Of a stretch of 64,000 bases of DNA, positions 42,446-64,000 are shown one piece after another (the first letter of the stretch is position 1; the number at the start of each line of letters is the position of its first letter). The notes beneath the pieces are model-generated. The model saw only the letters and a list, made by a program, of their open reading frames with translations. It had not been told where the DNA came from and ran no database searches. The stretch spans positions 1 through 64,000 of the forward strand of contig NZ_SOBN01000004.1 of assembly GCF_004365705.1 (NCBI RefSeq), written 5' to 3'. The position numbers were made by a program, and so were the translations under genes. The DNA comes from Streptomyces sp. 846.5. Lineage in GTDB: Bacteria > Actinomycetota > Actinomycetes > Streptomycetales > Streptomycetaceae.

Positions 42446-43495
42446 ATGCGCGCGGTAGTGACCGGCGGAGCCGGTTTCATCGGCTCCCACCTGTGTGAGC
42501 GCCTCCTCGCTGATGGATGCGATGTGGTGTGCGTGGACAACTTCCTCACATCCACTCCGCGCAACATCGAGCATCTCCTGAAGCATCCGGGCTTCCGCCT
42601 GCACCGACGGGATGTGACGCATGGTCTGCAGCTGCGCGGCTCGGTGGATGCCGTGTTCCACCTGGCGTCCCCAGCCTCACCGGCGGACTATCTCAGGATG
42701 CCGCTGGAGACCATGCGGGTGGGCTCCGCCGGCACCTGGCACGCACTGGACCTCGCGGCCGCCACGGGTGCCCGCTTCCTGCTCGCCTCCACCTCGGAGT
42801 CCTACGGCGACCCACAGGTCCACCCCCAGCCCGAGGACTATTGGGGTCACGTCAATCCCGTCGGACCACGCTCGGTGTACGACGAAGCGAAGCGCTTCGG
42901 GGAGGCACTGACCATGGCATATCGCCGAACCTGCGGTGTCGACGCCAAGATCGTGCGCATCTTCAACACCTTCGGCCCGCGGATGCGGCACGACGACGGT
43001 CGAGCCATCCCGACCTTCGTTCGCCAGGCAGTGCAGGGCGCTCCCATCACCGTGACCGGCTCAGGCACTCAGACCCGATCCCTGTGCTACGTCGCGGACG
43101 TGGTCGACGGCCTGATCCGCATGCTCAACAGCAGTCATGCCGGTCCGGTGAACTTGGGAAATCCCCACGAGCTGTCGATGCTTCAGCTCGCCCAGTGGAT
43201 TGCCGAACTCGCCGGTTCCACCTCCGGGATCACCCTGATCCCCCGCCCGGAGGACGACCCGGAGAAGCGGCGGCCCGAGATCACGGCCGCTCGTGAGCTC
43301 CTGAACTGGGCACCGAGCACACCGGTCGAACAAGGGATGCGCGAGACCATCTCCTGGTTCCGCCGCAGCCTCGGCAGTTCCGAGCTCGAACAGAACGCCG
43401 TTGCCTCGAGTGTCATCGGACCGCAGTCCCGACACGGCCTTCCGGAGCCGGAGGCGTCGCCGGCTGCCCCACAGCCAGGACCGCACGCCCACTGA
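42446..43495 (+). CDS. UDP-glucuronate decarboxylase-like SDR
   Basis: A 349-residue extended SDR close to UDP-xylose synthase. It would decarboxylate UDP-glucuronate to UDP-xylose using bound NAD. Seen: [93 protein letters not shown] (Tyr-xxx-Lys), FNTFGPRM and [13 protein letters not shown]. The [11 protein letters not shown] and [10 protein letters not shown] strings are strong markers for this group. The last 40 residues are a Pro/Ala-rich extension. Its substrate could come from the dehydrogenase at 14175. It is followed by the TagA-like gene after 58 bp. Confidence 0.88.
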
Positions 43496-43553
43496 CCCGG
43501 CACCCGATCGATCCGGAAAACATCCGCGTAGCCCGATATACAGAGGACCGACA

Positions 43554-44423
43554 GTGGACGCACCCAGCACACCCGGGCACGGCGGGTCGACAGGGTATCC
43601 GGTCTCCCAACACCTCCCGACGCCGGCCCTCGGCTCAGTGCCGCCCGCGCCTCGGCCAGGACCGCCACCGCGCGTCCTTCGCTGCGCGAACGTGCCCATC
43701 CTCACGTGCCCACCTGTCGAGGCGGCGCGCCAGGTCCTCTCGCTCGCCACCTCTCCCCTGAACCGCGGGGCGGACATTCATCTGTGCAACGCCTACACCG
43801 TCGCACTCGCCGATCGCGACCCCGGCCTTGCGACCCTGCTGAGGGAGGCGACAGCCAACTTCCCTGACGGCAAGTCAGTCGTCTGGGCCAACAGGTGGCT
43901 GCATCGCCGGCAGTCCCCACCCAAAACCGATCGCGTGTACGGGCCTGACCTCTTCCTCGACGTGTTCGCGCTTGGCGAGCCGATCGAGCTGCGGCACTAC
44001 CTCGTCGGCGGCGCCCCGCAGGTCCTGGTCGACCTTCAGGACCGACTGAGGGAACGCTTCCCAACCGCCTCGATCGTGGGCGCCGAGTCACCACCGTTTC
44101 GCGCGCCGACCGACAACGAGCGCCGCGCGCAGGTGGCACGGATCCGCAACGCAGACGCCCAGATCGTCTGGCTCGGCCTCGGGACTCCCAAACAGGACCG
44201 TGAAGCGGCCTGGCTCGCATCGCAGTTGCCGGTTGCCGTCGTCGCGGTCGGTGCCGCATTCGACTTCGTCTCCGGGCACAAGCCGCAGGCATCACCGTGG
44301 ATTCAGGACAGCGGCCTCGAATGGCTGTTCCGACTGTGCAGCGAACCCCGCCGACTGTGGCGGCGCTACCTGTTCGGGAACGCCAGATTCCTGCGATGCG
44401 TGGTCGCCCAGGCGGTCCGCTGA
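43554..44423 (+). CDS. WecG/TagA/CpsF family glycosyltransferase
   Basis: A 289-residue GT26 enzyme from a GTG with AGAGGA upstream; a longer frame from 43401 overlaps the preceding gene. Seen: HLCNAYTVALADRDPGLATL, FPDGKSVVWANRWLHRRQ, RVYGPDLFLDVF (donor/acceptor site), HYLVGGAPQVLVDLQDRL, IVWLGLGTPKQDREAAWLA and VVAVGAAFDFVSGHKPQASP. These enzymes add the second sugar (often N-acetylmannosamine-type) to a lipid-linked primer, which fits after the priming transferase at 41606. The final 132 bp are overlapped in antisense by the reading frame of the transposase-ANTAR gene. Confidence 0.9.
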   Translation: MDAPSTPGHGGSTGYPVSQHLPTPALGSVPPAPRPGPPPRVLRCANVPILTCPPVEAARQVLSLATSPLNRGADIHLCNAYTVALADRDPGLATLLREATANFPDGKSVVWANRWLHRRQSPPKTDRVYGPDLFLDVFALGEPIELRHYLVGGAPQVLVDLQDRLRERFPTASIVGAESPPFRAPTDNERRAQVARIRNADAQIVWLGLGTPKQDREAAWLASQLPVAVVAVGAAFDFVSGHKPQASPWIQDSGLEWLFRLCSEPRRLWRRYLFGNARFLRCVVAQAVR

Positions 44424-45989
44424 CCGTGAAACCGTGCCGAGTGGGCTGCGGGTCTCCGCTGCCGAACCCGTCCCCGGATGAACATGCACCCTCGCCGGCG
44501 CTGCCAGATCGGGCTGGGCCCCGGGGGGCGACGCGAAAGTACAACCGAGCAGGCTGACGTCGGTGCTGCCGTCGATGACATTGCGTGCCACGTCGGCGAG
44601 CGACTGCCGATGGGCTTGGGCGTGGTCGCGCAGCAACGCGAATGCCTCGTCGATCCCGATACTGCGGCCGGCTGCTACCACGCCCTTCGCTTCGGCGATG
44701 ACGATCCGGGACCGCACGCCCGGGCGAAACTGCCCCTGCGCCGACTCGCGCAGGGCATCGGCTTCGGCCTTGGCCGCAGCCCCGGGGGGATGGCTGACAC
44801 TGCCTGGGCAGAACGTCGATTTTGCGCGGACCGGGCGCGGAGAGCGATCCAGCACGACGGTGTGGCTGCGGCCGGTCACCGTCTCTCCGGCCCCTTGCGG
44901 GGCAACCTTGTGGCGGGCGATGACCGCTCCGCCGGCTGTGGCAATCGACAGGCACGGCTCGTCCAGGCTCCACCGCACTTCAACAACAGCGTCGGACAGA
45001 TCTGGCTGGACGGCGTAGAAGTTCCCCCGGAACGGCACCATGCCGTCGGAGGTAACCGTGCGCATGACACAGATCTGGGCCGGGAAGGGCGCGTCCGGCA
45101 ACTCCTGCAATCTCTGCGCACCGGCGTGCACACCGCCGGCCGCACGCGCGACGCGGGTGAACTGACGGCGCCGGTCCATCCATGCTGCGAGCTGGTCGAG
45201 ACTGTCCTGTGCGACCTGGATACGCGTGCTGTCGCCCACTGTGCTCCACCAGTTCTGGGAGACCGATCGCAGATCCTCCTCCGACAACACGTGCCGGCTG
45301 CCCTGCCAGGGCGGGAACCCGATTCCGACCCCGTAGAACTCAGCCACCTGGGCAAAGGCCCGCTTGACCTTGCCGGTCGACTGGGAGAACACGGCAAGTG
45401 GCTGATCGAACCGCCAGACTCGGGCTGTGCCTCCCAGGCGTCTCAGTACCTGGTCGATGGCTTCCACGAGCTGCGGGAAATCCTCGCTGTCGTCCGTGAG
45501 TACGGCGCGCCAGCGGCCCGTGCTGGCGAGCGCGCCCACCAGCAGGCGGGCGCAGCTCCCGTAGCCCCACCGCGCGGGCGGGTCGGGAAGCTTGAGCCAG
45601 GCGAACCGCACCTCCTCGCGTGCCGGGTGGGGTGCGGGCGCTCCGTCCTTGCTGAGGTTTCGGCAGCACAGTGCGCAGAGCGGCCGTACTTGGTGCTTGC
45701 GCAGCGCACGCGTGAACGTCGAGTAGCCTCCCAGATAGCCCAGGGCGACGACTTCGTCGAACAGCTCGGTAGCCTGCATGTGCGCGGCCTCAGCCAGGCG
45801 TTGGCGGCAGTACGGCAAGAACCTCTGAAACTCATCCGCCACGGGCCTTCGGACGCCGGCGACGCGTTCCCCTCCGAGGTAGTCCCTTACGGTCTTGCGA
45901 TCACGGGCCAGGTGCCGGGAGATCGCCGAGATAGACCATCCCTGGCCGCGCAGCGCACGCGCCTCCGCGTATTCCTCCTTTGTTAGCAT
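44292..45989 (-). CDS. IS21-like transposase relative fused to ANTAR domain
   Basis: About 565 residues from an ATG with AAGGAGG five bases upstream. Residues 1-45 are the IstA helix-turn-helix (EEYAEARALRGQGWSISAIS). Residues 60-400 match the actinobacterial IS21/Mu-like DDE core (LPDPPARWGYG, LGGTARVWRFDQP, NWWSTVGDS, PFRGNFYAVQPDL). The usual WDW before LPDPP reads FAW, so the first catalytic Asp is Ala at 130; D195 and E237 are kept. Residues 415-475 form an ANTAR RNA-binding domain (RIVIAEAKGVVAAG, IDEAFALLRDHAQAHRQSLA). The last 90 residues, antisense to the neighbouring gene, look like read-through after a lost stop. No istB follows. Possibly a domesticated regulator. Confidence 0.75.
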   Translation of the reverse strand: MLTKEEYAEARALRGQGWSISAISRHLARDRKTVRDYLGGERVAGVRRPVADEFQRFLPYCRQRLAEAAHMQATELFDEVVALGYLGGYSTFTRALRKHQVRPLCALCCRNLSKDGAPAPHPAREEVRFAWLKLPDPPARWGYGSCARLLVGALASTGRWRAVLTDDSEDFPQLVEAIDQVLRRLGGTARVWRFDQPLAVFSQSTGKVKRAFAQVAEFYGVGIGFPPWQGSRHVLSEEDLRSVSQNWWSTVGDSTRIQVAQDSLDQLAAWMDRRRQFTRVARAAGGVHAGAQRLQELPDAPFPAQICVMRTVTSDGMVPFRGNFYAVQPDLSDAVVEVRWSLDEPCLSIATAGGAVIARHKVAPQGAGETVTGRSHTVVLDRSPRPVRAKSTFCPGSVSHPPGAAAKAEADALRESAQGQFRPGVRSRIVIAEAKGVVAAGRSIGIDEAFALLRDHAQAHRQSLADVARNVIDGSTDVSLLGCTFASPPGAQPDLAAPARVHVHPGTGSAAETRSPLGTVSRSADRLGDHASQESGVPEQVAPPQSAGFAAQSEQPFEAAVLNPR

Positions 45990-46129
45990 CCAAACCTCCT
46001 TGCAAGGCTCTCCTGACGTCGCGCACTCCGAGTTCTTGAAGCCCGCTCTAATCCGGCCGGAAACATAACACAAAGGTTACCCAAGTCACACCGAAAAAAG
46101 GTTTCTCCTGTGCTCATGAAACCCTGGGC

Positions 46130-46667
46130 AATTTCACTGAGCGCCATCGGATGCATCGATGCCCCGTTTGCGCCACCCCCGATGTCGGTGCGTGATCAAT
46201 TCACGGGAAAGGGGGGTGGTGCATGCGCCACCCCCCTTCTTGGGAGGGGAGTTCCGCTGAGCGCCACTGTGGCCGAATGTGCCTCATGCGGACGAAAGGC
46301 GAGGTGGCGGGGGCGGCGTCGGTGAATTTCACCGAGCGCCACCGGAACGCCGGGGTGGCGCGCCGCGCCACCCCTGTGAGGCCCTCGGATGGTCAATCCA
46401 TGGCGAGGGCGCGCCAGTTTGCGCCACCCCCCTGGGCGGGGATTTTCACCGAGTATCAGCAGCTGTCACAGGAGTAGCATGGCGTTACTTTGTGCACTTG
46501 GGCATCTGCTGTCCCCATGGACAACCCCTGTGGATCCGCACGGTGCCTGGCTTGCCGTGCCCCCTCGACCAGCACTTCCGGGTCGGCGCTGCCGCTCGGA
46601 TCATCAATTCGAGGGAAGGTGAGCGTGGTGCGCGACGGCGGGCGGGTAATTTCACGGAGCGCTCCGG
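46130..46667. repeat. Cluster of AATTTCACYGAGCGC repeats
   Basis: The gap 45990-46733 has no gene but holds copies of a short element: 46130-46151 (AATTTCACTGAGCGCCATCG), 46325-46346 (AATTTCACCGAGCGCCACCG) and 46648-46667 (AATTTCACGGAGCGCTCCGG). Partial copies are at 46251-46272 and 46442-46453. Four GCGCCACCCC boxes (near 46166, 46226, 46370, 46420) alternate with them. The cluster lies directly upstream of the transposase-ANTAR gene. Multiple subterminal sites are typical of transposase-binding ends, and clustered sites also suit a regulator, but the binder is unknown. Confidence 0.6.
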
Positions 46668-46733: not shown

Positions 46734-46991
46734 ATGATTTCAATGCAACAGCCGAGGATTCTGCTGCCACAGGAGCAGGAGCCGATCTGCAGCCTCGGAA
46801 AGTGGCTCTTCGTCCCTGACCGAAGGAACCCCGCGGGCGACGTCCGGACCGGACATCTTTCCTGCAACGGCGAGCGAGTCACCTTGCAATACTGTTCCGG
46901 CGTCCTTGCCGACTTTGTGCGGACGATCCGCCAGATCGAGCATGCCTTCCTCGCACGATGCGGAACTGATCCGGCATCGGCCGGGGGGTGA
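46734..46991 (+). CDS. Small hypothetical protein
   Basis: An 85-residue frame with sensible composition (PRILLPQEQEPICSLGKWLF, then VTLQYCSGVLADFVRTIRQI) and three Cys. No clear ribosome-binding site precedes the ATG or the in-frame ATG at 46743. Upstream at 46648 is a repeat copy followed by TATAGAAAGACGCCCG, a block also found behind the copy at 63235, which may be its promoter region. Unknown function; reality uncertain. Confidence 0.4.
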   Translation: MISMQQPRILLPQEQEPICSLGKWLFVPDRRNPAGDVRTGHLSCNGERVTLQYCSGVLADFVRTIRQIEHAFLARCGTDPASAGG

Positions 46992-48598: not shown

Positions 48599-50104
48599 GT
48601 GGATGCGCTATTGTCGCGTGCCATGCAGTTGAATGCCGCGACCGATCCATGGATCATGGTCTCCGATGCGAGTGGCCAGACCAGCGAGGCCTCGATGGCC
48701 GCTGTGTTGGCCGACGCCGGTCAGTGGTCCGGCCTGGCGGGTGAACCACCAGTGGCCGCCGCGGTGTTGCGGCTCCTGGTCGCCGTCGTTCTGGATGCGA
48801 CGGGCGGCCCGCGGGATGACGCGGAATGGGAGCGCTGGTGGAACGAAGGCCTTCCCGTGCACAGGATCAGCGCCTACCTGGACCAGCACAGGGCGCGCAT
48901 GTACCTGCACTCGACGAGCGCGCCGTTCCTGCAGGACGCAGGAACGCCCGAGCGAGTCGGGGTGAAGTCCGTGGCCGAGCTCGCACCGCATCTGCCCACC
49001 GGGCAGAACCCGGTGATCTACAGCGACAGCACAGACCTGAACGGACCCAATCCTGCGCGGTTCACCCAGGCTGAGGCGCTGCGGTGGCTCGTGGCGTTCC
49101 ATCAGTTCACCCGGACGGGGATGTGGGCGAACGCAGCCGGGAGCGGCCCGGCGTCCGGCCGTGCCGGGATTCTCCTGGACCGTCTGCTGGCGATCCCCGC
49201 CGGCCCGACCCTGGCCCACACCCTCATCCTCAACCTCCCGACCGGAACGGCCGTCGGTCGCCCGCCGTGGCGAGCGGATGCACCTGTGCACGGACGTCCC
49301 CCCCGGGACGTCATCGAATTGCTGACCTGGCAGACCCGGCACGTGAAGCTACTGCCCGATGCCGACGGGACGGTGACCAGACTGCTCGTCGCCGTCGACC
49401 CCGGGATCGATCCGGCTGTGCCCAGGGACGTGATCGCCTCTCTCGACCTGCACATCACGGCAGTCGAAGCTCCGAAAGCCGCCGAGGGGTGGGCGTTGCT
49501 GGGCTACGAGCCGAACGTGGCAACCTGGCGCGCCGCCACGGCACTGGGAGCAGGAGCCAGCGGTGCACGGATGGTCCATGCCCTTGCCCAGCGCGCGGAG
49601 GTGATCGGCAAGACCCCGGTGTGCATCGAGACGGTGGGTCTGGCCGTGGAGGCGAAGTCGAAGTACGTGTCGTGGATGAGGGAGACCCTGCCGCTCGCCA
49701 TGCACACCACGACGCACATGCGCAGTGCCGTACTGATCGCGGAGACCGTCGCCGACGCTTGCGGGAGCGCGCTGCTGACCGCGCAACAGGACGCAGGCCT
49801 GGTGGCCGCCAACCCCCCTCGCGAGCAGCGCGCCCGGGTGACCCAGGCCGCGCAGCGGGCGTTCTGGCCCAAACTGGACCGGCACGGCGTCGACCTGTCC
49901 GAAGAGTTGGAACGCGCTGCCGATGAGGGTGCCCGCGCTCACCTCTTGGACGCATGGCTCCGCCAGGTCGCGTCCGCCGCACATGCCGCACTGGATTCCT
50001 GCACCACCTCGCTGCCCCCCGCTCCCCGGTACGCGGCGGCTCGCGCGCGGGGCCACCGCATCATCCGCGGCACCGTTCGTGATCTGGCCCAGGAGTGCGC
50101 ATGA
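48599..50104 (+). CDS. casA: Type I-E Cascade large subunit Cse1 (Cas8e)
   Basis: A 501-residue protein (or 493 from the ATG at 48623). The N-terminal DPWIMV corresponds to the family's DEPWIPV, and SMAAVLADAGQWSGLAGEPP and AVLRLLVAVVLDATGG follow as in Cse1. The middle LPTGTAVGRPPWRADAPVHG, then DVIELLTWQTRHVKL, is also characteristic. Cse1 recognises the PAM and recruits Cas3. Upstream 270 bp includes an AT-rich patch (TCAATATTATAAAAATCGGA near 48396) that may be the operon promoter. No cas3 lies on either side in the window. The next gene overlaps by ATGA. Confidence 0.9.
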   Translation: MDALLSRAMQLNAATDPWIMVSDASGQTSEASMAAVLADAGQWSGLAGEPPVAAAVLRLLVAVVLDATGGPRDDAEWERWWNEGLPVHRISAYLDQHRARMYLHSTSAPFLQDAGTPERVGVKSVAELAPHLPTGQNPVIYSDSTDLNGPNPARFTQAEALRWLVAFHQFTRTGMWANAAGSGPASGRAGILLDRLLAIPAGPTLAHTLILNLPTGTAVGRPPWRADAPVHGRPPRDVIELLTWQTRHVKLLPDADGTVTRLLVAVDPGIDPAVPRDVIASLDLHITAVEAPKAAEGWALLGYEPNVATWRAATALGAGASGARMVHALAQRAEVIGKTPVCIETVGLAVEAKSKYVSWMRETLPLAMHTTTHMRSAVLIAETVADACGSALLTAQQDAGLVAANPPREQRARVTQAAQRAFWPKLDRHGVDLSEELERAADEGARAHLLDAWLRQVASAAHAALDSCTTSLPPAPRYAAARARGHRIIRGTVRDLAQECA

Positions 50105-50619
50105 ACGCTCCGGCGCCCGACTGGGCGCGTCCCCTGCCCGACGCACTGGCCCGGATGAAGACCAGGGGGAACCCGGGCGTACTGGCCACACTGCGCCGCG
50201 CCCTGCGCTACCTCCCCGACCGTCCCGACCCATCCGCGCTGCCCTACGTCATCCCCCACGTCCGGCCCTGGCGCGCCGCGCAGGACGCCGGCCTGCTGAC
50301 CGCAGGCCTGTGGGCGCGCTGGCACACGGCCTATCACCAGCCCGTCAGCGGCACCCTGGACCTGGGCGCCGCCCTGGCGCGGATCCGGGACGAGAGTGTC
50401 CGGGAGCGCCACATCACTGCACTGGTCAACGCGGCCCCTGCCACTCTTCCGCGTCGCCTGTCCGCCGCAGTCGACGTCCTGGCCACGGAGCAGGTCGCGC
50501 TGGACTGGCCCACATTGCACGCAGACGTCTCCCGCCTGCTGGACAACCGTGGCGATCGGGTGCACCGCCGCTGGCTCACCAGCCTCTACCACCCCGTGAT
50601 CGCCACCGAACCGGAGTAG
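50101..50619 (+). CDS. casB: Cascade small subunit Cse2 (Cas11e)
   Basis: A 172-residue helical protein starting at an ATG overlapping the cse1 stop. ARMKTRGNPGVLATLRRALR, with RHITALVNAAPATLPRRLSA and LDWPTLHADVSRLLDNRGD, matches the Cse2 pattern, in which basic helices line the Cascade belly and bind target DNA. Length and position are standard. Four bases separate it from cas7. Confidence 0.88.
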   Translation: MNAPAPDWARPLPDALARMKTRGNPGVLATLRRALRYLPDRPDPSALPYVIPHVRPWRAAQDAGLLTAGLWARWHTAYHQPVSGTLDLGAALARIRDESVRERHITALVNAAPATLPRRLSAAVDVLATEQVALDWPTLHADVSRLLDNRGDRVHRRWLTSLYHPVIATEPE

Positions 50620-50623
50620 CGCC

Positions 50624-51850
50624 GTGCCCACCCTCGAGATCCACATGCTCCACCAGCTCCCCCCATCGCTGATCAACCGGGACGAGGACGGCCAGCCCAA
50701 GACGGCGCACTTCGGCGGAGCCAAACGGGTCCGCTGGTCGTCCCAGTCCGCCAAGCGAGCCATGCGCATCCACTTCGGCGACGCCGGACTGATCCCGGCG
50801 CAGAACCTCTCCTCGCGCACCCGGAAGATCCCCACCCTGCTGACCGCCGCCCTCGCTGATCTGGGCCACAGCGCAGCGGACGCGCACGCGTTGGCCGTCA
50901 ACACCGTCTGGGGCGCAGGGCTCCTGGACACCGACCCCGCCAAGGCGGCACTGAAGCAGTCGAACGTGCTGCTGCTGATCTCCGACCAGGAGATCCGGTC
51001 GATCGCCGAGCGCGTGCACGAGCGCGCCGACGAACTCCTCGCGGTCGCGGTGCCCGATCACACCATCTGGCCCTCAGGGGACGACGAGGAGTCCAAGGCG
51101 GCCGCGAGGAGGTCGAAGAAGGAACGCAAGGCGGACTGTCCTGCGGAGTTCCGCGAGTTGGGCAAGGACGCCCTACGCCGCCTGGACGCCACCAAGGCGG
51201 CCGACATCGCACTGTTCGGCCGCATGATGGCCCAGGCGCCGGAGGCAGGGGTGGACGGTGCACTCCACGTCGCCCATGCGATCGGCACCAACGCCATCAT
51301 CGACGACCTCGACTACTTCACCGCCGTCGACGACCACGCCGCCCCGGGCGAGGCCGCGACCGGGTTCCTGGACACCGCGAGCCTGACCTCAGCGGTGTTC
51401 TACCGCTACCACAGCCTGCAGCTCGGGCAGCTCGGCAGGAACCTCGCCCACGACGACAAGATCATCGAAGCGACCGTCAACGCGGCCCTGACCGCTTCGG
51501 TCAGCGCCATGCCAACCGCCAAGCAGACCTCCACCGCTCCCTGGACCCGCCCATCCCTGGTTCTGACCGTACTGCGCGAGGACCAGCCGTTGTCCCTGGC
51601 CAACGGCTTCTCCCGACCGGTACGCGCCGACTACGGCAGCGACCTCATCACCGCCTCCGCCCGTGCACTGGCCCGGCACTGGGACACCCTGGGGCGCAGC
51701 TGGGGGCATCAGGGCGTCATCGCCGCCTGGCACACCTGGAGCGGGGAGCCCGACACGATCACCGAACCAGGTCTGCCCGGCCAGGCCCTGCCCATCCGCG
51801 ACCACCTCACCACCGCCGCCGCCCGCGCCGTTCTGCACACGGGACCCTGA
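50624..51850 (+). CDS. casC: Cascade backbone Cas7e (Cse4)
   Basis: A 408-residue protein from a GTG start. The N-terminal LEIHMLHQLPPSLINRDEDG, AHFGGAKRVRWSSQSAKRAM (RNA-binding palm) and the C-terminal YGSDLITASARALARHWDTL are hallmark Cas7e segments. Six copies would coat the crRNA spacer. The length is slightly above the E. coli protein because of a charged insert around residues 145-170 (DDEESKAAARRSKKERKAD), close to the thumb region. Its stop overlaps the cas5 start by one base (TGATG). Confidence 0.93.
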   Translation: MPTLEIHMLHQLPPSLINRDEDGQPKTAHFGGAKRVRWSSQSAKRAMRIHFGDAGLIPAQNLSSRTRKIPTLLTAALADLGHSAADAHALAVNTVWGAGLLDTDPAKAALKQSNVLLLISDQEIRSIAERVHERADELLAVAVPDHTIWPSGDDEESKAAARRSKKERKADCPAEFRELGKDALRRLDATKAADIALFGRMMAQAPEAGVDGALHVAHAIGTNAIIDDLDYFTAVDDHAAPGEAATGFLDTASLTSAVFYRYHSLQLGQLGRNLAHDDKIIEATVNAALTASVSAMPTAKQTSTAPWTRPSLVLTVLREDQPLSLANGFSRPVRADYGSDLITASARALARHWDTLGRSWGHQGVIAAWHTWSGEPDTITEPGLPGQALPIRDHLTTAAARAVLHTGP

Positions 51851-52554
51851 TGCCAACCCTCCTCCTGCGCTTGGACGGACCCATGCAGGCGTGGGGCTCC
51901 TCCAGCATGTTCGAGCAGCGCGCCACAGACCTGCACCCCACCAAGTCCGGGATCATCGGCCTCCTGGCCGCCGCTCTCGGCCGTCCCCGCGAAGCGGACA
52001 TCCTCGACCTGGCCGCACTGCGCTGCGCCGTGCGCGTGGACCAACCCGGGGAGATCCTCCACGACTTCCAGATCGTCGGCATCGACGGCTGGTACTCCGC
52101 CTCGGGAAAAGTGACCGTCGGTCAGCCCAAGCTCTCCCGCCGCCAGTACCTGGCGGACGCGGTGTTCACCGTCGCGGTGGGAGGGGAGAACACCGCCCTG
52201 ATCGAGGACTGTGCCGCCGCGTTGACCCGCCCCGCCTACGGGCTGTTCCTCGGCCGGAAGTCCTGCCCACCCGCGGCACCGATCTACGTCACGACCACCG
52301 AACAGGATCCCGTCACGGCTCTGACGGGTTTCCCCTACCAGGGGCGCCTGCGCGCGCCCGCACGCTTGCGCATCATCGGCGAAGACCCGGCCGGCCCCTA
52401 CCTGACCGCTGATCAACCCGTCAGTTTCGCCCCGGGCCGGCGCACCTACACGGGCCGGCGTACCAGGACGACCTCGATCCCGACGCCCCTGCACTCCCCC
52501 CAACCCGGCGCCGCACCGTTCTCCGGCGGTGACCCCTACGAACTCGGAAGCTGA
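51850..52554 (+). CDS. casD: Cascade subunit Cas5e
   Basis: A 234-residue RAMP protein. LLLRLDGPMQAWGSSSMFEQ and ATDLHPTKSGIIGLLAAALG are the signature N-terminal segments; they bind the crRNA 5' handle. The middle LHDFQIVGIDGWYSASGKVT and QPKLSRRQYLADAVFTVAV follow the family closely. Four bases separate it from cas6e. Confidence 0.93.
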   Translation: MPTLLLRLDGPMQAWGSSSMFEQRATDLHPTKSGIIGLLAAALGRPREADILDLAALRCAVRVDQPGEILHDFQIVGIDGWYSASGKVTVGQPKLSRRQYLADAVFTVAVGGENTALIEDCAAALTRPAYGLFLGRKSCPPAAPIYVTTTEQDPVTALTGFPYQGRLRAPARLRIIGEDPAGPYLTADQPVSFAPGRRTYTGRRTRTTSIPTPLHSPQPGAAPFSGGDPYELGS

Positions 52555-52558
52555 AGCG

Positions 52559-53287
52559 ATGTCGCTGTACCTCTCCCGGATCGTCCTCGATCCGCGCCGC
52601 CGCTGGACCGCCACCATCCTGCGGAACTCCCAGGCCGCACACGCATTCGCGCTGACTCCCTTTGCCGGAACCCGCGTGGAGAACCAGGTACTCCACCACC
52701 TCAACGCCCCAGCACACCAGGAACCTGTCCTGCTCATCCAGTCCGCCAGTCCCCCCGACTGGGGGCGTGCCAACCCCAATCTGGGCATCCGTCCCACAGT
52801 CAAGGACATCACCGCCTTCCACGCCGGGCTCCGGGCCGGCCACCAGTTGCGGTTCCGCCTCATCGCCGCACCCACACGGACCTCCCCGGGCGGCTTCCCA
52901 GGACGCGAACGAGGGACCAGGCTCCCGCTGCTGGACCCCGACGCACAGGCGGCGTGGTTCACCCGTCGTACCGAAGGTGCCTGCGCCATCGACACGCTCG
53001 TCGTACTACCGCACGGCAAGCGGTCCGGGTGGCAGAGCACCTCGCGCGACGACGTCTACGAGCTCGAGAACAGGCACGGCCCGCGAACGATCACCCACAA
53101 CCAGGTCTGCTACAGCGGAGTCCTGACCATCCGTGACCCCGACGAACTCCGCACCCTGGCCGCCGTCGGGATCGGCCCGGGCAAGGCGTACGGCTGCGGA
53201 CTCCTGGCCCTCGCGCACCTCACCCAGGCCGGCCCCGCAGACGGCCGTGCCGACCGACCAGTCTCCGCCCTGTACGCACGGGGATGA
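52559..53287 (+). CDS. casE: crRNA endonuclease Cas6e, ends inside CRISPR repeat
   Basis: A 242-residue RAMP nuclease that cuts pre-crRNA at the base of the repeat stem. Start at the ATG of LYLSRIVLDPRRRW. The candidate catalytic His is in NSQAAHAFALTPF (position equivalent to His20-region of E. coli Cas6e). The Gly-rich loop is GIGPGKAYGCGLLALAHL. The last eight codons (SALYARG, stop) lie within CRISPR repeat 1. By analogy with the E. coli cut site, cleavage of that repeat would fall within the final GGA codon, removing the stop. The end residues are therefore constrained by RNA structure as well as protein. Confidence 0.92.
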   Translation: MSLYLSRIVLDPRRRWTATILRNSQAAHAFALTPFAGTRVENQVLHHLNAPAHQEPVLLIQSASPPDWGRANPNLGIRPTVKDITAFHAGLRAGHQLRFRLIAAPTRTSPGGFPGRERGTRLPLLDPDAQAAWFTRRTEGACAIDTLVVLPHGKRSGWQSTSRDDVYELENRHGPRTITHNQVCYSGVLTIRDPDELRTLAAVGIGPGKAYGCGLLALAHLTQAGPADGRADRPVSALYARG

Positions 53288-63085: not shown

Positions 63086-63661
63086 GTCTCCAGTGTGATG
63101 ATTTTTCGGACATCCCGATGTCGCCCCGCCCGCGCGCATCGGCGATCGCGAAATTCCCCACCTGCGATTGGGCCCGCCATTGTTCCGCCCTCTCGGAATA
63201 TGTGACAGGCGGGTGTCATTCTGTATTTCGACGTCCGGAGCGCTCGGTGAAATTCATCACCGCAGAGCACCGGAGAGTGGTTTTTGAGGAGCACAATCAG
63301 TGCCGGAGAGCATGCTAAGCTTCCGGTCGAATTGTGGCGCTCGGCCAAAATCCGGAGTCCAATGCAGAGAGAAAGCCCTAGCTGAAATGGCCGCTATTAT
63401 GATTTTTCGACTACTGGGTCCAGGGATGGCATGTGGCGTCGGAGCACGGCCATGACGGTCTCCGACCTGCTGGCCGGGAGGACTTCACCGTACGGCACCT
63501 TGCTCGTCGCCGTTGGTGTGTCGGCCGCGATTGCAAGGCTGGCAAACCCGTGTATGCGGCCGCCCCGTAATCCAGCTGCCGGCAGGCCTGCATTGTCGCT
63601 GCGCGTCGCCCTGCAGAAGCTCCGCGTCTTGGGTCGTAGAAATTCGGGAAATTGAACTGAC
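63086..63661. other. Intergenic region with two dispersed repeat copies
   Basis: No gene is firmly supported. On the minus strand, upstream of the glycosyltransferase pair, lie AATTTCACCGAGCGCTCCGG (63235-63254), a downstream TACAGAATGACACCCG block, and a second element beginning CAGGTGGGGAATTTC (63139-63164). The 63235 element and block match those at 46648; the 63139 element matches the one at 9215. This arrangement suggests a shared promoter-type element. An alternative is a decayed small gene, since the minus-strand frame is open through both. Confidence 0.5.
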
Positions 63662-64000
63662 ATGGAAACCTGTATCTCAGTCCACGAAGCGACGCGTCGC
63701 AAGGCGGTTGGAATGACGCGGGAGCAAGTTGCCAGGGCCGTCGAAGTGGCCCGGATTCACGAGCGCCTACGCTCCTGGTCCAGCGGCACCCCGCAGGATC
63801 AGGCCGTCATTCGCGGTCTCGAACAGGCCCACGAGGAATGGCTGCGCATCGCCTACGTGATGTGCGTGGAAAAGATGACCACCTATCAACTCGACCAGGA
63901 CCCCGCCGTTCATTTCTGGTTCCGCGATGACGGCCCGGAAGGTTGTGGACCAGGCCTCAGTCCGGGATCGGGCAGCGGCCAAGAGTGCCTCTGCCTCGAC
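63662..64000 (+). CDS. Partial hypothetical protein, runs off the window
   Basis: At least 113 codons without a stop to the window end, from an ATG at 63662 (an alternative ATG is at 63712). The part visible is helical and polar (MTREQVARAVEVARIHERLR, RGLEQAHEEWLRIAYVMCVE), then HFWFRDDGPEGCGPG. No family recognised. Composition is credible for a real protein, but the start is weakly supported. Confidence 0.45.
   Translation, partial: METCISVHEATRRKAVGMTREQVARAVEVARIHERLRSWSSGTPQDQAVIRGLEQAHEEWLRIAYVMCVEKMTTYQLDQDPAVHFWFRDDGPEGCGPGLSPGSGSGQECLCLD

Follow-up and report, generated by a model that had tools for sequence, protein, structure and literature searches.

Transposases that have been domesticated to serve as regulators are known mainly from eukaryotes. 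Among bacterial enzymes, the transposase IstA of the IS21-family element IS5376 has been solved (8b4h, 8q4d) and consists of two helix-turn-helix domains, an RNase H-like domain and a beta-barrel, in that order. The accessible text of its description gives D124, D187 and E233 as the catalytic residues, mutation of which nearly abolishes integration, several direct repeats as the binding sites, and two direct repeats at the ends of IS21 elements (PMC10122671). ANTAR antiterminators such as EutV and NasR act on RNA: Arg142, Lys149, Tyr164 and Arg168 of EutV, among others, contact the hexaloop, EutV dimerises through a coiled coil together with its ANTAR domains (both from the accessible part of PMC8934654), and alanine at R340, W362, R366 or N373 of NasR abolishes RNA binding (likewise PMC7496416). 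Here we describe a protein in which an IS21 transposase core and an ANTAR domain are joined, encoded in a stretch of 64,000 nucleotides from Streptomyces sp. 846.5 (the window).

The gene is a single open frame of 565 amino acids on the reverse strand (44292-45989), running from an ATG at 45989 to a stop at 44292. A preliminary description, made from the letters of the window, had proposed that an IS21 helix-turn-helix and core share one frame with an ANTAR domain, and both halves are recovered: Pfam places ANTAR (PF03861) at residues 425-472 (44574-44717, reverse strand; 45.8 bits, gathering score 27.3, E 5.4e-12), and when a profile is built from three such fusion proteins, its positions 1-338 align with the solved IstA of IS5376 (E 3e-19). 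The two helix-turn-helix domains occupy residues 1-104 (45678-45989, reverse strand; limits after the accessible text of PMC10122671) and are followed by a degenerate RNase H-like domain and a Mu-transpos_C_2 beta-barrel at residues 297-365 (44895-45101, reverse strand; Pfam E 1.1e-8), the same order as in IS5376 IstA; the NCBIfam model transpos_IS21 (NF033546) aligns to residues 11-223 and scores 75 bits, short of the 160 that it requires. The ANTAR domain sits where IstA has a flexible C-terminal tail. In having a C-terminal ANTAR above the Pfam cut-off the protein is like EutV, NasR and the GAF-ANTAR-like antiterminators of the genus, but at its N-terminus a DNA-binding transposase core takes the place of the sensor domain, and the Pfam scan finds no N-terminal signal-receiving domain (REC, GAF or NIT). 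Residues 484-565 (44295-44540, reverse strand) form an unconserved tail that has no counterpart in the two ANTAR-bearing relatives introduced below, is predicted to be disordered and is partly antisense to a WecG/TagA-family gene (43401-44423), so that the conserved protein is best taken as approximately residues 1-480. A structure predicted from four sequences has a mean pLDDT of 61 and therefore serves as a guide only; the model shows the helix-turn-helix pair, the RNase H-like domain, the barrel and then, at 404-473, a helix plus the three ANTAR helices (block means 69-86), and among solved structures IstA chains match it best (E 6e-12), the TM-scores over the whole multi-domain model being low (0.18-0.31).

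Unlike IS5376 IstA, the window protein has Ala in place of the first catalytic Asp, is unaccompanied by istB and has five repeats upstream of its gene. In the alignment the triad positions are A130 (codon 45600-45602, reverse strand, corresponding to D124), D195 and E237, so the first Asp is replaced, the second Asp and the Glu are kept, and the complete DDE triad of an IS21 IstA is absent; an IstB profile gives zero matches across the 20 kb surrounding the gene. The preliminary description had read both the substitution and the missing neighbour correctly. Three related loci, the two ANTAR-bearing relatives (L064 and L066) and a second relative in the same genome (L003), also lack the first Asp, with Thr in the former two and Ala in L003, and the Glu matching E237 is kept in L064 and L066 in an alignment of the three fusion proteins.

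These losses reach wider than the ANTAR fusion. Sixty loci were taken from a search of the Streptomycetaceae and 62 were examined, of which 61 became rows of a tree, L101, a truncated DDE-type copy, being omitted; matches that were weak or fragmentary were set aside, as were five strong ones (two on G077:C43, two on G204:C13 and one on G053:C3). Twelve of the 61 rows keep the full DDE triad, in a VEK/MEK context, and form one clade with 100/100 support, while the alignment shows no complete triad in the other 49, two of which (L058 and L097) carry a Glu one residue off the aligned place, so that their missing triad depends on the alignment. IstB-like sequence, sought with a profile expanded from a signature of 49 residues over flanks of about 7 kb (shorter at contig ends), accompanies 11 of the 12 intact-triad loci (ten within 2.2 kb, L086 at 6.2 kb, none at L081) and none of the 50 others, L101 included. 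The ANTAR profile matches 3 of the 62 loci, exactly the three fusions; both losses, that of the triad and that of istB, extend beyond these. Ratios of non-synonymous to synonymous change (dN/dS) are 0.15-0.65 in ten of ten pairs of rows from the catalytically dead family and 0.08-0.22 in three active pairs, meaning that selection on most dead-family pairs is weaker than on the active enzymes, the fusion pair discussed below being the exception; several genomes supply more than one row, so the rows are not independent.

Upstream of the dead genes lies a repeat, GCTCNNYGAAATTCCCC, that is found at 46 of the 49 loci in one to five copies each. The repeat cluster that had been noticed at 46130-46667 is real and corresponds to five copies in the window, all on the reverse strand, at 46126-46142, 46246-46262, 46321-46337, 46438-46454 and 46644-46660 (13, 12, 13, 12 and 13 of 14 fixed bases, respectively), the last adjoining a divergent small gene. 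Counting sites with at least 11 of the 14 fixed bases, the 49 dead loci hold 109 matches, compared with about 2.4 in shuffled sequence; at least two are present in 37 loci, one in nine and none in three (L058, L063 and L117), and 105 of 110 matches (the 109 plus L101) point in the direction of the gene. The proximal repeat (at least 10 of 14 bases) lies at -205 to -110 in 46 of the 49 loci, usually near -150, and the spacings, most of them 46-64 or 96-125 bp, show no clear helical period. At a tolerance of one mismatch in 12 picked genomes, ten of which have dead-family genes, 19 of 32 matches fall in the 500 bp that precede a dead-family gene, and a backward control pattern in the same 12 gives one match. 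In the window's own genome three of eight near-exact repeats lie in the array and two more on the same contig, with zero for the control. The arrays of the two ANTAR relatives are weak (one match at L064, two in the gene's direction plus one reversed at L066, the gene-direction copies scoring 12/14); none of the five near-exact repeats in their two genomes is upstream of the fusion gene, and one in S. pinicola (L066) sits at the small gene.

The 12 active loci hold ten repeat matches against 0.9 expected, and at five of them the repeat copy starts with TGATGG, followed in four by a second repeat 49 bp on, an arrangement that an IS21 left end would be expected to show. The repeat thus appears to resemble the left end of active IS21 elements; no right ends with the repeat motif were seen, nor were any in the active elements that share it. 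Between the proximal repeat and the gene the dead family conserves AGAAACGTTTCT-like and GTGCTATGTTTCC blocks, which are probably promoter elements, and in the window the corresponding promoter-like stretch, a GAGAAACCTTT block followed by GTGTTATGTTTCC, spans 46059-46108 on the reverse strand. The palindrome-like AGAAACGTTTCT block between repeat and promoter is itself conserved, with an imperfect window copy at 46094-46108, and is possibly the site of a second regulator.

On the far side of the array, two divergent genes on the forward strand encode a small protein of 85 amino acids without a Pfam match (46734-46991; homologues upstream of 30 of the 49 dead-family genes) and a DUF2637 protein (PF10935, 47061-47795; homologues upstream of 31 of the 49). 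One or both are present at 32 of the 49 dead-family genes as against none of the 12 intact ones, and 17 of the 49 have neither. Some further arrangements can be recorded here. In five genomes (G142:C3, G098:C3, G095:C92, G077:C43 and G204:C13) two opposed dead-family genes lie about 15-18 kb apart, facing outward in four and inward on G077 (parts are in L108, L109 and L112-L115); the partners of the three pairs represented in the tree fall in two separate clades, and between those of L112/L113 genes for IPT/TIG-like surface proteins were recognised by eye. Stand-alone IS21 N-terminal helix-turn-helix proteins of about 105-125 amino acids (L008, L009 and L016) are encoded close to a small gene, the product of which has a start similar to FSTEELxxQKAGLLPGREALG. 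Also, 0.8 kb beyond the DUF2637 gene of the window a CRISPR_Cse1 gene (Pfam E 2e-59) opens a forward-strand run of five genes (48599-53287). The run resembles a type I-E cas operon, the identities of the other four genes being putative.

As for the ANTAR fusion itself, full-length examples among 14 genomes of the genus (the window's own included) are the window protein and those of G007 and G009, which recur, in a collection with species names, as proteins of Streptacidiphilus melanogenes and S. pinicola (L064 and L066, respectively). The window protein is 49-50% identical to these two, with ANTAR in the same place, and the pairwise identities of all three are 49-50% or 83%, their genes lying in a related genomic region. 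No further match covering ANTAR was found in 394 genomes of the family (E <= 1e-25) or 391 of the order (E <= 1e-30), both sets being samples and the order search drawing largely on the same family; one match, in G148:C529, extended beyond a stop as far as residue 453, with no hit by the ANTAR profile at that place. The second relative in the window's own genome, L003 (C1, 5044-6378), is 62% identical to the S. pinicola protein and has no ANTAR domain; no near-identical copies of the fusion gene exist in that genome. L003 shows no ANTAR after a conserved DxQA stretch, has neither divergent neighbour and one repeat, and is perhaps a decaying copy. In the 61-row tree the window protein, the S. 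melanogenes and S. pinicola proteins and L003 form one branch (bootstrap 99, SH-aLRT 92). On this tree the fusion arose once; a double gain of ANTAR is disfavoured by this grouping of the four members. The domain itself says little about its origin, since identity of the window ANTAR is 41-43% to the domains of the two relatives (residues 425-475) and 32-40% to 15 other ANTAR stretches of the genus, over slightly different ranges and with one further locus unmatched. At E 0.001 a single further ANTAR is present in the window's own genome; it belongs to a protein that begins like a response regulator, presumably with a receiver part.

Purifying selection acts between two of the three fusion proteins: for S. 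melanogenes against S. pinicola, the Nei-Gojobori method gives a dN/dS of 0.155 over the core (340 codons), 0.181 over ANTAR (55 codons), 0.11 for residues 1-60, 0.41 for the linker and 0.79 for the last 15 codons, and none of the three frames has an internal stop. The ANTAR branch is a real, selected architecture. The preliminary description had named confinement to one genome, with frameshifts or relaxed selection, as what would expose a chance join of insertion-sequence debris to an ANTAR fragment that is drifting to loss, and the outcome is the opposite. Such a join would be in keeping with the missing first Asp and istB, with the loss of ANTAR by L003 and with the run-on appearance of the C-terminal 80 residues of the window protein, but it is rejected, and we regard it as highly improbable, in view of a fusion common to three species at 49-50% identity, its single origin on one branch (99/92), dN/dS of 0.155 and 0.181 between two of them and three stop-free frames. 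The idea that the element still moves, with help in trans to complete its transposition, has even less to commend it, the left-end-like repeats being retained but all four branch members having lost the first catalytic Asp, istB being absent, and the fusion genes differing (49-50% or 83% identity, in a related region) while the window's own genome holds no near-identical copy. It is also very unlikely that the dead IstA blocks transposition in trans by sitting on IS21 ends and poisoning active elements; the repeat does resemble the end of active relatives, but the sole other match in the own genome at E 0.001 is L003, itself without the first Asp, the four IstB-family matches there are partial or weak, near-exact repeats concentrate at dead genes, and the conserved divergent genes would be left unexplained.

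The reading that we favour, at a probability of about 0.72, is that of a domesticated, catalytically dead IS21 transposase that would regulate its own and a divergent promoter, and to which ANTAR was added once in Streptacidiphilus. The regulator part is well supported by comparison, and the earlier suggestion that the protein works at the upstream repeats gains weight from their presence across the dead family; binding to the repeats, the direction of regulation and RNA contact are what we infer. The two helix-turn-helix domains would bind a direct-repeat array inherited from the IS21 left end, which lies between the fusion gene and the divergent pair of small gene and DUF2637 gene, and subunits held together through old transposase contacts could control both promoters. 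Joined at the C-terminus, where IstA has its flexible tail, ANTAR most likely contributes a dimeric, RNA-contacting module, by which a DNA-bound regulator could also act on the nascent transcript.

It is this RNA side of the proposal that fared less well. With contact positions matched to EutV and NasR by their spacing from the AK motif, the window ANTAR has R428, K435, F450 and R454 at four contact or required positions and Ala where EutV has Asn173, while the S. melanogenes and S. pinicola domains have W, K, F and S, that is, W and S at two Arg positions. The case for RNA binding is a plausible one for the window protein and a weaker one for its two relatives. The ANTAR-type double hairpins that had been suggested as targets were looked for, and no conserved one was found: Rfam returned no such RNA in four sources, and a double-hexaloop scan of 800 bp upstream at eight loci gave one match each in L064, L003 and L067 (0.00-0.01 in shuffles) and none in L066 or in the intergenic stretch of the window, the S. 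melanogenes match not being shared with the other fusion loci; any targets may be located elsewhere. On the 169-kb contig there are 13 hexaloop pairs with stems of at least four, a modest excess over 6.2 +/- 2.5 in 20 shuffles that moved blocks of two bases, none of them within 2 kb of the fusion gene, and with stems of at least five there are 0 against 0.8. It may well be, then, at somewhat short of an even chance, that the regulator reading is right and ANTAR is a helix bundle for dimerisation or protein contact that has lost RNA binding; the W and S of the relatives in a domain that is nevertheless under purifying selection, the part played by ANTAR in EutV dimerisation (accessible part of PMC8934654) and the want of a conserved hairpin in the loci scanned point that way, but the window protein retains R428, K435, F450 and R454. 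The most far-reaching version, an IS21-derived regulator that sits on old transposon ends and captures the adjacent emerging transcript through ANTAR so that promoter choice and termination are coupled, is a tentative and rather doubtful one.

Possible targets beyond the array can also be considered. Seven single repeat sites (at least 12 of 14 bases) occur outside it on the 169-kb contig, where permuted motifs give 1.13 +/- 1.45 and reach seven in 4 of 300 cases; this is suggestive, and no regulon is established. One of the extra repeats (63242-63258, forward strand, 12/14) lies 420 bp before a conserved forward-strand gene at 63662-64000, of about 120 amino acids and without a Pfam match, which is about 17 kb from the fusion gene in the window and has a homologue about 200 bp downstream of it in S. 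melanogenes and S. pinicola, and the repeat may be linked to the regulation of this gene. In the same two species the small gene, at a distance of 5.3 and 7.7 kb from the fusion gene, is flanked by a repeat on either side, and this ties the repeat to the small gene. The genes common to the contig and the fusion regions of these species include sugar-nucleotide and glycosyltransferase genes.

Like the domesticated transposases that serve as regulators, the fusion branch has lost catalysis, kept its DNA-binding domains and is under purifying selection; unlike those mainly eukaryotic cases it is bacterial and IS21-derived, with a repeat array of its own and an RNA-type domain that was added. The preliminary description knew of no protein of this kind, and a literature search, which left subscription journals largely uncovered, agrees, no description of an IS21-ANTAR protein or of a dead IS21 family being among the matches listed; the word transposase is absent from the accessible main text of PMC8164766, a survey of ANTAR RNAs in actinobacteria, and in that of PMC9208149 the single 'antar' belongs to Antarctic and not to the domain. 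As far as this search went, the ANTAR branch is a new domain combination, and one that would tether an RNA-binding module to DNA. It stands within a sizeable family of bacterial DDE transposases that have lost both catalysis and the partner ATPase and kept their DNA repeats; with the active sisters of this dead family for comparison, domestication can be followed step by step in the sequences.
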